Below, piece after piece: positions 1-14,038 of a stretch of 56,396 nucleotides of DNA. The position numbers and the translations under genes are program-made. The notes beneath the pieces were generated by a model. It saw only the letters and a program-made list of their open reading frames with translations, was not told the DNA's origin and ran no database searches. Source of the DNA: Arcobacter sp. EP1 (GTDB lineage: Bacteria; Campylobacterota; Campylobacteria; Campylobacterales; Arcobacteraceae); the NCBI GenBank assembly GCA_001655195.1, contig LPNY01000158.1, forward strand, positions 182,236 through 238,631. The letters are read 5' to 3'. Every line of letters starts with the position of its first letter. Positions within the stretch are counted from its first letter, which is position 1.

Positions 1-3000
1 GAATATTAATTAGTTTTAGTAATTCACTTTTTAATAAAGCTAACTTATCATTAATCTTCACGGGTGCTTTTCTTTTCAAAAAATCACTATTGTTTTTCAA
101 GTTATTGTTCTCAATCCATAAAGATATTATTCGAGAATACTCACCTGTAAAGTCTATTCCCCTTATTCTCTTTATATTTTTATTAAAAATTTTTGATTTT
201 GCTTTACTATATGAAGTTATCATTTTCACAGATACAGGATATTTTGTTAAATCAAGGTCTAATATAGGATTCTCTTCATTTGTTTTACAAATTCTATAAT
301 AAAATTTTATAATGTCATAATCTAATATATAATTGATATTTAAATATCCTGCCGTAGTAAACAAAAAATTAAGCATATCAATTTCTGTTTTCTTTTTTTT
401 GTTATAACTATTTCCAAAAGAACTTAATTCAGGAATCCTTCTTAATAAATTTATTTCATTGTCAGTTAATATTTTAACTGGTTCAAGAATATCATCAGAT
501 GATAAAACTCTATATTCTTCTACATAATTCTTTAATTCAAATGTAATATATTTTTGTGCATATCGTCTAATATTGTGATAATACAAAATCTTCGGGAAAG
601 ATAATGCTTTAATGTATGCAATGGAAGCTTCAAATTCAATCATTTTTGATATTGTATTATTTAAGTCATTTTCTATTTCATAATTATATTTCTTATAATA
701 GTATTCATAGAAATACTTCTTAACCTCAGCACAAAAATTCTTAACTTCAGATGCTACAAATTGATGACATTCTTTAATTGTATCAATATCACCAAACTTT
801 TCAATAGAACTATAAATAAACTCAACTGCAAAAAGTTTTAGAAAGTTATTAAAATCTCGAACAAGATCAATTGTATCATTCTCTATAAAATCATTATTTT
901 CTACTTGTAATTTTTCGACTCTTTTTTTAAACTCATTTTTTAGAAAAACCATCGATGAATCTTTCATAAGACCTTTTAAGCTTTTTTCTCTATTACATAA
1001 ATAGCAATCTTCAAAACTTGTTTTTATTGGCTTAGTATTTAGTTTAAGGAAATTAAAAAAATTGTTCTTCTCATAATAATTACTTATTATCTTAGCATCT
1101 TCATTTGATGTTCTATTAATTAAGGTAAATACTCCTTTAAACTTACTAACACCTATAATTGAATGAAGTAAACTAGAAAAATACTCTAATGTATTACCTG
1201 ATGAAATCTCATCATCAACAAAATAGAAATCATAATTTCTCTTATTATAAAAAGTTAAGTTTCCTAATTGATGAAGGTTTTGTTCTTTATATTTTAAACT
1301 AAATGGATGAATAATTGCATTATTCTTAAATAGTACCTTGTTAATTACTGTTATTAAACTATTATTGGTATGATGATTAGGAGACAATATAACAGATATC
1401 TTATCTGTATTTATAATGTTTTTCTGTTTACGAAAATAGCGTTTAACTTTACTGAGGTTATTATCAAGAAAATTTAATGTTTTAGTATAATATAAATAGT
1501 GATTATTCCCTCTTTTTACATGTCCAAAGTGAAGTGAGTTTCTCCATGAAACATTATTAACTGCACTTTTTTCAATGTTATAGATATTATCTAAATAAAT
1601 ATCCAAAATATTAAAACCACCTAATGATATTTCATATAATGGTTTTTCATCAGTATAATCATCAGAAAAACAATGGGGACAATTTTCATCTAAATGAATA
1701 CATGCGTCATTAAGCTTTTTTTCAAAAAGTGTAATAAAATCTGACTTATTACTATCTATATTATCGTATTTCAAATTTATTGCACAATAATAAAGAGAAG
1801 AACTTGAATCTACACTATCAAGATTAAAAAAATTTTTAATTCCATTACCACTCAATAAAATTGGAGAAAAAAACATACAACTTGTAACTGTATTTCCTAA
1901 GTATTCTTCAAAATGTCCTGTATGTTCAAAGTCATCTATTATATATACTGAGTTTGGAAGATTTAGTATCGATTTCATAATACTTATTATTAAAGCAGAG
2001 TATTTACCAAATCCTACAATCAACATATCATTTTTAATAAAACTCTCAAACTTTCTTGATAAATCAAATGCTAATCTATAAATCCACACTGAATTCTCAA
2101 ATATATTCTTAAAAAAATAAAACTTGTTTAAATGAAAACCCTTTTTTGTATCTACATGAATGTTTTTTGAATTAATCTCTAAATAATTCTCCATCATTTC
2201 TGTATATATATATTTAGTATTCACTTCCTTAGATTCTAATGATTCATCATTTGGTAAGGAGAAAAATAATTCGAAGGGAATAAATCTATTTTTATAAAAC
2301 AATTCTGACTTCAAAGATACTTCTTTATTTCCAGTATCACTAAATGGAAAAAAGTTCTCTCCATAATAATTATAATACATTGATAAATCTTGATTTATTT
2401 TAACCGCTTCTTCCCTACTCTTTGTACCTAAAAACATAACACTTGGATATGTGTCATCCATAAAGATAATATTTAATGGACTACCATAATACTCATTGTT
2501 ATCGGGATAAAGAATGTAACTTATTGTTTGTAAATAGTTTTGATTTAACTTTATAGGAAAGTTCTTTATAATAACATCTTCAGTGTTACTGATATATGTA
2601 TAATTAAATACTTCTCTTAAAAAATCACTAATTTTATTCTTAGAAAAGTATTTTCTGTAGTCAATAACAATGTGCTGATTCTTTTTCGTCGTTTTTTGTA
2701 AATTAAGAAGTTTAAATTTATTAATTTGATTTTGAATATTTTGTTTATTCTTATAAAAGTACTTATAATCAGCCTCTTTCAGGTTTAAAGGAGTAGCTTC
2801 TTTTAAATACTTATTATTTACTTCATTTTCAAACTCTTTTTTTACATTAATTGTAAAAGGGAACGACAATTTTATATACGTTCCAACAACACAAGATTTA
2901 GTAGCAAGCTCAATAGGTTCAATATTTGTTTCACCTTCACTATCATAAGAAATCACATAACACCTATTATTTCGATGTACATAAATTTCTAATTTTGCAC

Positions 3001-4294
3001 TAATAAGTTTATTTAGAATATTTAACAAGACAGGTATTCCGAAATGCATTGTAATTCTTCGTGCTTGATGCATTCCAATAGAGGTTTTTAAATGAAATAA
3101 ACCATTCAAAATATTTTTATCATCAGTAACAGTATTATTCTTTAAAGCAGTAATTTCAGTACTAAAGTCTTTAACAATGTCTATAAACTCTTGATGTTCA
3201 TTATTACTATCTTTATAATGAAGTTTTTCTATATTCCTAATAAATTCATTTATACTTCCATCTTTATTATAATTCTCAAGGCAAAGAAGGATATACCTTG
3301 AATATTCAGAGTCTTTTTTTACTTTCTCATTCTCTACTACTAATATATTTTTTAATTCAGTTATGAGTACATCAAGATAAGTATCTAAAAAACCTTTTTC
3401 ATAATTATCACAAACTAAAAACTCATTTCGTTTTGCTGATTTGTTTTTATAAAAAGAAATATATCCATTAGCATTATTAGTATGTTTTACTATATTAAAT
3501 ATACATTCACATAATATATTTTGTATAAATCTTGCTAAGTTTGCATTTTTATCTTTAATTACGTCTAAATGCAATATAAATATTTCATCTAATATAGTTC
3601 TTATTTTTTCAGAATAATCTTCATCGATATACTGTGATGAACTAGTCACTTTAAAGGAATGATAAAAACTTGCTCGATTTACTGATTCATCGTTATTTAA
3701 AGATATTCCATCAGTATCATCAATATTGTATAAAGGAGTGATTTGAACTATTGGTAGAAAGGGATAAGACACCCTATTCCCGTTTTTATCAATAACTCTA
3801 GAAAGAGTATTATAAGAATAATCTTTCTCACCCTTATATTTTAAATATACTCTATTATCAAAAGAAAAATAATCTGCTTCTTTAATATAAACATCATCAT
3901 TATATTCTAAAACAATTTTTTCGTAATCAATATACTGTAACAAATATATTAAAACAAAGTTTTGATTACGATATGGACTTTGTCCTTCTTTATAACATTT
4001 CTTTTTTTTAAGATTTGATAAATCAATTTTAAGAATCACTTTCCCTGGTAACTTTTCAACCTCGTTAATTAAATTCAATAAATAAATTAAAAACAATGGT
4101 TGTATAAACTCAACATCATCTTCAAATTGAATTCCAACTATTTTATTTTCTTTTTTTTCAGGTATTTTTTCTTTTATTTTTAAGATTGTTAAGTAGTATT
4201 TTTCAATAACATTTTCAAATTCATCATCTTCTACTAAGTTCAAGTCTTGATAGTTAATCCTAACAATATTTACATCATGTAATATCTCACTCAC
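1..4294 (-). CDS. Very large GHKL-like ATPase / phosphoribosyltransferase-like protein (C-terminus off window)
   Basis: An uninterrupted frame of 1431 codons starts at GTG 4294 and leaves the window at base 1. AAGGAG lies 7 bases before the GTG. I recognise no named family for the whole protein. Residues about 255–285 (NILCECIFNIVKH, then NANGYISFY) look like the N-box of a GHKL ATPase, and GTYIKLSFPF near 470 resembles its last glycine box. Near residues 740–780, IVGFGKYSALIISIMKS followed by IIDDFEHTG resembles a PRTase fold. Residues 1026–1036, VDDEISSGNTL, closely match a PRPP-binding loop (usual form VDDVxTTGxT). Cys pairs at ~868–873 (CPHC) and ~1092 (CYLC) could bind zinc. No membrane segment or signal peptide is visible. 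The gene looks more AT-rich than its neighbours and lies beside tRNA-Asn genes, which suggests acquired accessory DNA. A defence or stress role is only an inference. Confidence 0.72.
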   Translation of the reverse strand, partial: MSEILHDVNIVRINYQDLNLVEDDEFENVIEKYYLTILKIKEKIPEKKENKIVGIQFEDDVEFIQPLFLIYLLNLINEVEKLPGKVILKIDLSNLKKKKCYKEGQSPYRNQNFVLIYLLQYIDYEKIVLEYNDDVYIKEADYFSFDNRVYLKYKGEKDYSYNTLSRVIDKNGNRVSYPFLPIVQITPLYNIDDTDGISLNNDESVNRASFYHSFKVTSSSQYIDEDYSEKIRTILDEIFILHLDVIKDKNANLARFIQNILCECIFNIVKHTNNANGYISFYKNKSAKRNEFLVCDNYEKGFLDTYLDVLITELKNILVVENEKVKKDSEYSRYILLCLENYNKDGSINEFIRNIEKLHYKDSNNEHQEFIDIVKDFSTEITALKNNTVTDDKNILNGLFHLKTSIGMHQARRITMHFGIPVLLNILNKLISAKLEIYVHRNNRCYVISYDSEGETNIEPIELATKSCVVGTYIKLSFPFTINVKKEFENEVNNKYLKEATPLNLKEADYKYFYKNKQNIQNQINKFKLLNLQKTTKKNQHIVIDYRKYFSKNKISDFLREVFNYTYISNTEDVIIKNFPIKLNQNYLQTISYILYPDNNEYYGSPLNIIFMDDTYPSVMFLGTKSREEAVKINQDLSMYYNYYGENFFPFSDTGNKEVSLKSELFYKNRFIPFELFFSLPNDESLESKEVNTKYIYTEMMENYLEINSKNIHVDTKKGFHLNKFYFFKNIFENSVWIYRLAFDLSRKFESFIKNDMLIVGFGKYSALIISIMKSILNLPNSVYIIDDFEHTGHFEEYLGNTVTSCMFFSPILLSGNGIKNFFNLDSVDSSSSLYYCAINLKYDNIDSNKSDFITLFEKKLNDACIHLDENCPHCFSDDYTDEKPLYEISLGGFNILDIYLDNIYNIEKSAVNNVSWRNSLHFGHVKRGNNHYLYYTKTLNFLDNNLSKVKRYFRKQKNIINTDKISVILSPNHHTNNSLITVINKVLFKNNAIIHPFSLKYKEQNLHQLGNLTFYNKRNYDFYFVDDEISSGNTLEYFSSLLHSIIGVSKFKGVFTLINRTSNEDAKIISNYYEKNNFFNFLKLNTKPIKTSFEDCYLCNREKSLKGLMKDSSMVFLKNEFKKRVEKLQVENNDFIENDTIDLVRDFNNFLKLFAVEFIYSSIEKFGDIDTIKECHQFVASEVKNFCAEVKKYFYEYYYKKYNYEIENDLNNTISKMIEFEASIAYIKALSFPKILYYHNIRRYAQKYITFELKNYVEEYRVLSSDDILEPVKILTDNEINLLRRIPELSSFGNSYNKKKKTEIDMLNFLFTTAGYLNINYILDYDIIKFYYRICKTNEENPILDLDLTKYPVSVKMITSYSKAKSKIFNKNIKRIRGIDFTGEYSRIISLWIENNNLKNNSDFLKRKAPVKINDKLALLKSELLKLINI

Positions 4295-4334
4295 AAAATT
4301 CTCCTTATAAATGATATTTCATCATATATAACTT

Positions 4335-4358
4335 CTGTCACAGTTTCTGTCACAGAAA
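4335..4358 (-). promoter_or_regulatory. Tandem palindromic operator-like site upstream of the large ATPase/PRTase gene
   Basis: CTGTCACAG at 4335–4343 is followed by TTTCTGTCACAGAAA at 4344–4358. Each unit is an inverted repeat around a central C, and the two are 12 bp apart. They lie about 40–65 bases before the GTG start. An AT-rich stretch reading TATATGAT on the minus strand lies between site and gene and could be the -10. The layout suggests a repressor or activator site for the large gene. The regulator is unknown. Confidence 0.45.
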
Positions 4359-4563: not shown

Positions 4564-4638
4564 TGGCTCCGGCACCTGGATTCGAACCAGGGACCAAATG
4601 ATTAACAGTCATCTACTCTACCACTGAGCTATGCCGGA
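4564..4638 (-). tRNA. tRNA-Asn(GTT), copy 2
   Basis: The minus strand folds as a full cloverleaf. The acceptor arm TCCGGCA pairs with TGCCGGA, and the anticodon loop TGTTAAT carries GTT. The T arm is CCTGG-TTCGAAT-CCAGG, discriminator G, with an encoded CCA end. The 75-base gene is identical to the copy at 4679–4753, 40 bases away. It lies next to the AT-rich accessory gene on the left, so it could mark an integration boundary. Confidence 0.96.
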
Positions 4639-4678: not shown

Positions 4679-4753
4679 TGGCTCCGGCACCTGGATTCGA
4701 ACCAGGGACCAAATGATTAACAGTCATCTACTCTACCACTGAGCTATGCCGGA
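4679..4753 (-). tRNA. tRNA-Asn(GTT), copy 1
   Basis: Identical in sequence to the 4564–4638 gene: same acceptor stem, GTT anticodon and encoded CCA. The two are probably cotranscribed in the minus direction with a 40-base spacer. The GTT anticodon reads AAC and AAU codons. Confidence 0.96.
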
Positions 4754-12902: not shown

Positions 12903-14038
12903 TATTTACAACACTCCTCTGGCGTCTCTTTTTCATTTACTAGGATTTTAGCTTTTGCTATCCCTTTTTGATTACCAACTAAGAGTAGTTTGCAATCCCC
13001 TTTAATAATCGTATTACCTTTAGGCATTTGAATAAAGTGCCCTTTTTTCTCCGTAATCCCAATAACCGATACCTTATACCTATCACGTAAGTGAATCTCT
13101 CGAAGTTGTCTATCCACTAACCATGAGTCATGCTCAACATAAACCTCTTCCATATCAATAGGAGTATCAGGTTTATATAAAAACTCATCCAGTACGTTTT
13201 CCATATCAGGACGAATTGCCATGGCACTCACACGTTTTGCCATAAGTGATGGTGGCGCAACCACTTTATCAGCACCTAGTTTTTTTAATCGAACTTTATC
13301 ATTTTGAGTCTCGGCATTTGAGATGATTAAGAAAGGATTATTTCGTCCAAGCTCTTTTTCATAGAGTCTCACTGAGGCAATCAATGTAATGTTATCAGAG
13401 ATATTTTTCGACAGTGAAATAACCCCTTTTGCACTAGAGAGGTGTGACTTTAAAAAAGCATCCTCTTTATAAGGCTCCTCTTTGACAAAATATGGATAGC
13501 CGTTCTCTTTTGCAATCTGTTCTATATCGTCACTAGGGTCAACAACCACAAATGGGATGTGATTTTGACGGAACTGTTTTGCTAACTGGGCGGTGTATTC
13601 ATTATGATGAAAAATAACAAAGTGCTTTCTAAGTCGTGCGATTTTATAAAGCATATTTCTTTCCTTATAAAGTTCAAAGAGTTTACCTTTAATAACTGCA
13701 TCAATCAAAATTGCTGTTGATAGTGTAAAAACAGCAAATCCAAAAATAATGAGTGTAATTGTAAAGATTCGTCCAGCAGGTGATATTTCACCTATTTCAC
13801 CAAATCCAACAGTTGTAAAGGTAATTCCAGTTTGATAAATAGCGTCTAATATATCGAAGTCATCAATAATAATGTATCCGATGGTACCTACCATCATTAT
13901 TATTTGAACAAGTACTAAAGGTAATCGAAAAGGCTTGAGTTGTTGATATATTGCGGAGTCTAGGTCGTATTCTGGCTTGGTATTACGTATTTCCCAGCCA
14001 AGTGCTTTTTTAAGTTTTCTAAAGAAGCTTAAGCTCAT
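12902..14038 (-). CDS. Potassium channel protein with RCK/TrkA-N domain
   Basis: A 378-residue inner-membrane protein of the two-TM prokaryotic K+ channel type. Hydrophobic helices lie near residues 38–58 and 92–113. Between them TTVGFGE (residues 75–81) is the K+ selectivity filter. From residue ~135 a TrkA-N/RCK Rossmann domain follows (HFVIFHHNEYTAQLAKQF; DADK-type GADKVV), then a TrkA-C-like C-terminus (~290–365). The nucleotide-binding glycines of the first RCK strand are weakly conserved (IFHHNE rather than GxGxxG), so the ligand may be different. It lies between rpmB and argJ. Confidence 0.9.
   Translation of the reverse strand: MSLSFFRKLKKALGWEIRNTKPEYDLDSAIYQQLKPFRLPLVLVQIIMMVGTIGYIIIDDFDILDAIYQTGITFTTVGFGEIGEISPAGRIFTITLIIFGFAVFTLSTAILIDAVIKGKLFELYKERNMLYKIARLRKHFVIFHHNEYTAQLAKQFRQNHIPFVVVDPSDDIEQIAKENGYPYFVKEEPYKEDAFLKSHLSSAKGVISLSKNISDNITLIASVRLYEKELGRNNPFLIISNAETQNDKVRLKKLGADKVVAPPSLMAKRVSAMAIRPDMENVLDEFLYKPDTPIDMEEVYVEHDSWLVDRQLREIHLRDRYKVSVIGITEKKGHFIQMPKGNTIIKGDCKLLLVGNQKGIAKAKILVNEKETPEECCK

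Follow-up and report, generated by a model that had tools for sequence, protein, structure and literature searches.

The giant protein encoded at the left edge of a 56,396-nucleotide stretch of Arcobacter sp. EP1 DNA (contig LPNY01000158.1, positions 182236-238631; the window in the following, meaning this whole stretch) is likely to serve as sensor kinase in a two-component system for defence. It probably constitutes a novel type of virus alarm, because in two relatives the adjoining receiver protein carries an ATP-destroying effector of the Detocs type. The original prediction, made from the window alone, had described an uncharacterised giant protein with a GHKL-like ATPase, phosphoribosyltransferase (PRTase) motifs and a possible role in defence. 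Both domains were recovered, the family proved to be previously unannotated, and the role in defence gained likelihood from the effectors of the relatives, in which a receiver domain (REC) is fused to a purine-nucleoside-phosphorylase-type (PNP) domain, and from a Gabija system next to one of them. What lay beyond the window edge and was missed is the pairing of a sensor histidine kinase with a receiver protein, because of which the locus is regarded here as a two-component signalling system and not as a stand-alone effector.

The giant gene and its relatives

The window was taken from a genome of 3.0 Mb in 229 contigs and starts at the exact end of a 70-N scaffold gap, hence the giant open reading frame (ORF) is cut at the window edge. 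On the minus strand (4294..2) it extends over 1431 codons without a stop, from a GTG start codon with an AAGGAG-type ribosome-binding site ahead. At the 24% G+C of the ORF, a stop is expected about every 10 codons and an open run of this length has a probability of log10 P = -65 (~10^-65), while the other five frames over the same DNA contain 89-262 stops each. The AT-richness that had been pointed out is real as well, with 23.5-24% G+C in the gene compared to 29-36% in the rest of the window. Extension of the contig to the left, which had been proposed for finding the C-terminus and partner genes, recovered partner genes and a C-terminal piece. On the far side of the gap, the frame continues (L004:14193-15166, minus strand) for ~320 more residues up to a C-terminal histidine-kinase ATPase (HATPase), and this piece can be aligned to the C-terminal ends of the full-length relatives. 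Next come a REC gene and a membrane-protein gene that overlaps it. The whole protein of this genome would thus comprise ~1,750 amino acids (aa).

Seven relatives of the giant kinase were found, six of them complete (L009, 1713 aa; L010, 1740 aa; L020, 1871-1882 aa by start choice; L037, 1875 aa; L038, 1751 aa; L039, 1846 aa) and one, L018, ending with its contig at 1245 residues. The eight sequences, including that of the window, can be aligned along their full length at pairwise identities of mostly ~26-38%, with L009/L010 (78%) and L020/L037 (66%) as closer pairs. A first scan of 397 genomes of the phylum yielded one relative, and more came from searching the order, the family and a related genus with profiles. 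The occurrence is patchy: the window's family has the gene in 5 of 104 genomes and the order in 4 of 399. Two Sulfurimonas metagenome-assembled genomes from a genome-contig scan turned out to be the same records as two members from the profile searches; this was a single scan with two weak N-terminal patterns, which limits any statement on members outside Campylobacterota. On the sequences at hand, the family is known from scattered Campylobacterota. Neither plasmids and phages, searched by tblastn, nor scans of viral contigs gave a match. Likewise, Pfam, NCBIfam, PADLOC and PHROGs assigned no family to the giants scanned, except for HATPase_c above the cut-off in L039, so that annotation pipelines would label these kinases hypothetical.

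Fragments and one pseudogene of the giant kinase occur in further genomes. One such remnant (L022:7159-7824) lies beside an apparent insertion sequence transposase fragment and after an MNT-HepT toxin-antitoxin pair, which also precedes L009 and L010. It is read as a degenerated copy in a comparable location.

Domain architecture of the giant kinase

The part of the protein encoded in the window is organized as follows, all features being on the minus strand:

2..4294, giant protein, first 1431 residues (open frame; full-length relatives)
3650..4294, residues 1-215, conserved N-terminal alpha/beta region beginning FIQPLFLIYLLNL (alignment)
2849..3577, residues ~240-482, GHKL ATPase (predicted fold of the L009 equivalent; hhalign)
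1640..2197, residues 700-885, alpha/beta segment (FxGxGKYS...), possible degenerate PRTase (alignment)
1670..1681, C872xxC875, invariant in 8/8 (alignment)
965..1642, residues 885-1110, predicted PRTase domain (family profile; sub-threshold Pfam matches)
1190..1219, residues 1026-1035, PRPP-loop motif VDDEISSGNT (DD invariant in 8/8)
995..1006, C1097xxC1100, past the PRTase core, invariant in 8/8 (alignment)
2..967, residues 1110-1431, mostly helical linker, conserved (ALSFPK, YSxxKSKYF) (alignment)

The GHKL-like region, placed earlier at ~255-480, carries the N-box ExxxN (263-267), D296...G301, HFGxP (417-421) and GTYIxLSFP (471-479). A structural model of the L009 equivalent (predicted local distance difference test, pLDDT, 67.8; predicted template modelling score, pTM, 0.69) retrieved GHKL proteins alone from the Protein Data Bank (PDB) with Foldseek, at a probability of up to 0.99 and a best E of 3e-3. 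In VIA-align, the best match reached Z 7.9 at a root-mean-square deviation of 3.5 over 131 aligned residues; all 50 listed PDB rows belonged to one superfamily (Hsp90, GyrB/ParE, topo II, CheA, sensor kinases), though each had Z < 8. Compared with the family's own C-terminal HATPase by hhalign, the region gave E 2.7e-4 and a probability of 42%. As judged from the model, it is a GHKL ATPase with the Bergerat fold. A sequence search of the PDB with the giant-family profile returned nothing.

The second domain is predicted to be a type I PRTase. Its loop for phosphoribosyl pyrophosphate (PRPP) had been recognized at 1026-1036 and is now supported by the profile of the eight members, which ranked PRTases at the top of 241 ORFs with a best E of 8e-5 and an alignment of ~100 residues that includes the PRPP loop; a PRTase profile had been used to enrich this set, so that the informative part is the rank relative to non-PRTase neighbours. 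At the same site, Pfam PRTase_2 matched three members (E 0.26, 0.029 and 0.0027) and Pribosyltran a fourth (E 0.066), all below the cut-off. The giant's PRPP loop and ~100 surrounding residues hence resemble these families by profile; unlike them, the domain sits in a kinase and is followed by a CxxC pair. In L018, the loop reads SIASSHT, with its glycine replaced. The two cysteine pairs are present as described, 4-5 residues away from the earlier positions (~868 and ~1092). By contrast, the PRTase-like segment claimed near residue 755 has the look of an alpha/beta fold and no statistical support; residues 700-885 gave no significant match to PRTases by profile. The idea that 700-885 and 885-1110 arose by tandem duplication, suspected from their CxxC ends, was abandoned (hhalign 0.5%). 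Residues 1-215 gave no profile match, and a STAS fold, suspected by eye alone, was unsupported; residues 1110-1431 matched no known family.

The C-terminus points to a histidine kinase. HATPase_c was found in L039 (genome G657) at E 4.5e-10, above the Pfam cut-off, and a search of other genomes with the C-terminal part of the family profile also hit ordinary sensor kinases. The piece from the window's genome retains the HATPase N-box, the remainder being cut by a second gap of 54 N. A histidine ahead of the HATPase (INHS/KGSH) is invariant in the complete members and in this piece, and a GAF-like stretch (IGVIVIEH) was noticed by eye, also ahead of the HATPase. With HATPase_c and a putative phosphoacceptor histidine, the giant protein is predicted to be a sensor histidine kinase.

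Receiver partners and candidate effectors

In 6/6 members with downstream DNA, the next gene encodes a REC-like protein, adjacent or with an overlap of a few bases, and the same arrangement is found in the window's genome. The receivers comprise 275 aa (L009, L010), 341 aa (L038), 349 aa (L039) and 475 and 479 aa (L020 and L037), and the receiver aspartate is kept in all that were aligned. The two longest, from genomes G630 and G648, feature a C-terminal PNP/MTAN-type nucleosidase fused to REC, with E 7e-17 (L020) and 9e-15 (L037) for PNP_UDP_1 and 1.4e-60 and 4.8e-59 for PADLOC PDC-M60C. The locus of L037 adjoins Gabija GajA and GajB, and a SoFic-type gene lies near L020. Directly upstream of the L037 kinase, GajA and GajB are accompanied by a 584-aa third gene with a weak match to PDC-S71 (E 2.4e-11; L037:13542-17890, minus strand), and this set is possibly a three-gene variant of Gabija.

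The receiver of the window's genome has 191 aa and no PNP domain, and its gene overlaps that of a 150-aa protein containing four hydrophobic segments:

L004:13561-14136 and 13122-13574, minus strand, receiver and overlapping membrane protein with matching tails (sequence comparison)

The C-terminal tail of the receiver, INLYGDSKYIEKMDGNINEK, is identical to the N-terminus of the membrane protein, INLYDKSKYIEKLNGDINEG, at 14/20 positions, compared to at most 9 in shuffles, and this pair was the sole match at E < 0.1 across the genome. The DNA of the tails is 73% identical and 6 of the 12 changed codons are synonymous, which suggests that the tails are kept alike by selection. The two tails have the appearance of an ancient tandem duplication. 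Matching motifs at the termini of neighbouring receptors and effectors are known from bacterial amyloid signalling sequences (BASS; PMC8086366, PMC12261475). Like BASS pairs, the present tails of ~20 residues stand at the facing ends of neighbours, one of which is a candidate membrane effector. Unlike in these pairs, the tail is borne by a response regulator instead of an NLR. The match suggests activation of the effector by tail templating; that the two tails form amyloid is offered as a hypothesis only.

The defence reading and its alternatives

The closest known system is Detocs, which consists of the histidine kinase DtcA, the phosphate-buffering receiver DtcB and the response regulator DtcC, whose best-known form bears a PNP cleaving ATP (PMC11249213, PMC11728103). 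The giant family shares with it a large sensor with C-terminal HATPase and one or more receiver-domain partners downstream. Plasmid REC-PNP loci, with a sensor of ~1,160 aa, a receiver of ~155 aa and a REC-PNP of ~400 aa, display the Detocs layout. PDC-M60 is taken here to be Detocs, on gene sizes and domains. A Detocs proper whose DtcA has merely diverged would account for the kinase-then-receiver gene order and for the DtcC-like REC-PNP partner, matching PDC-M60C, in two members. This is improbable on several grounds. PDC-M60A gave no match to any giant that was scanned, but matched plasmid DtcA-type proteins at E 1e-46 to 1e-82. The giant profile aligned with four DtcA-type proteins at the HATPase N-box only (probability 0.6%), and direct homology to DtcA was not found. 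No second receiver gene corresponding to DtcB stands beside the REC-PNP in L020 or L037, and the window's locus has one receiver. The giants (~1,710-1,880 aa) bear GHKL, PRTase and CxxC pairs, unlike the ~1,160-aa DtcA, and the DtcA-type proteins gave no PRTase match. The REC-PNP is confined to two relatives, the other members being paired with REC-helical proteins or with REC and a membrane protein. Because a PDC-M60A or DtcA-type profile match and a DtcB are lacking, the giant system is not filed as Detocs; on present evidence it is most likely Detocs-like in its working, with a different sensor. In the plasmid Detocs-type locus of an Arcobacter (L024:3897-8897, plus strand), the ~1,160-aa sensor is seemingly split into two overlapping annotated frames, the second half matching PDC-M60A.

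In the proposed defence system, the ~1,750-aa protein would sense infection, presumably by phage, or its effect on the nucleotide pool through the N-terminal GHKL ATPase and the PRTase. It would then autophosphorylate the invariant histidine ahead of the C-terminal HATPase and pass the phosphate to the receiver encoded directly downstream, which may be the effector itself or the switch for one. In the REC-PNP relatives, the nucleosidase should destroy ATP, as its Detocs counterpart does, and so shut down the cell. In the window's genome, the 191-aa receiver would activate the overlapping 150-aa four-helix membrane protein, possibly through the matching tails, and the latter would depolarise or permeabilise the membrane. 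Besides the Detocs-type effectors and the Gabija neighbour, the patchy distribution, the G+C content of 24% and the remnants in other genomes were counted in favour of defence.

Several observations weigh against this interpretation. The C-terminus of the window copy is crossed by both scaffold gaps (70 and 54 N), leaving the last HATPase part unreadable, and the histidine-bearing helix domain was assigned from one invariant residue. An AlphaFold prediction of residues 530-1130 in three sequences (window, L009, L010) reached a pLDDT of 38.6. The receivers score weakly against Pfam Response_reg (E 0.058, 0.34 and 0.018), most of them below the cut-off. The PNP-bearing members L020 and L037 are closely related and come nearer to one observation than to two; the locus of the window's genome lacks a PNP effector, and its effector is inferred. 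Finally, the left flank yielded no recognisable gene of known defence function, and housekeeping genes occupy the window side of the locus.

These housekeeping genes beside a single-copy chromosomal locus would suit a two-component regulator of metabolism, one that responds to PRPP or purine levels and acts on housekeeping effectors, as would the intact PRPP loop, a PRTase fold with such a loop being a natural PRPP/nucleotide sensor. Such a regulator seems hardly probable in view of the very patchy distribution, the pseudogenised remnants, the low G+C content, the Gabija neighbour and the defence-type effector. Very unlikely is a PRTase that is itself the toxin, e.g., modifying nucleotides or nucleic acids under the control of GHKL and HATPase, for which the invariant DD of the loop and the occurrence of PRTases among domains of predicted and validated defence systems (PMC13092281) speak, whereas receiver partners already supply effectors in at least two members and the replaced loop glycine in L018 argues for binding over catalysis.

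The two-component defence system would suggest that defensive two-component signalling is a modular plan not restricted to Detocs, with unrelated giant sensors driving the same receiver-linked effectors. It would also mean that an immune protein uses a phosphoribosyltransferase fold as its sensor, so that sensing of nucleotide pools could be tested directly, and might provide a case of a phosphorelay triggering an effector via matching tails. A bolder version is rather doubtful: the giant kinase would read the PRPP/nucleotide state via the PRTase pocket and pass the signal to exchangeable effectors linked to receivers; the one in the window's genome would be switched on by amyloid-type tail-to-tail templating, from the phosphorylated response regulator to a membrane pore. 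If true, a phosphorelay would feed an amyloid-style signalosome and the kinases would be immune sensors of a new class.

Upstream of the giant gene, the following features were found:

4334..4357, no strand assigned, two copies of TCTGTCACAG with 12-base spacing upstream of the start codon, candidate operator (sequence)
4564-4638 and 4679-4753, minus strand, two tandem tRNA-Asn(gtt) genes of the same sequence with 40 bases between (sequence)

The tRNA-Asn neighbour noted earlier is therefore a pair instead of a single gene. Its adjacency had been read as fitting acquired DNA; the tRNA tail is not repeated in the window or in 32 kb of the left flank, and integration of the locus into tRNA-Asn was dropped. 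Downstream of the operon, a gene for a Tle1-like phospholipase with a lipoprotein-like start (L004:10948-12273, minus strand; Pfam E 1.3e-55) adjoins a coiled-coil ORF and an HTH_3 regulator.

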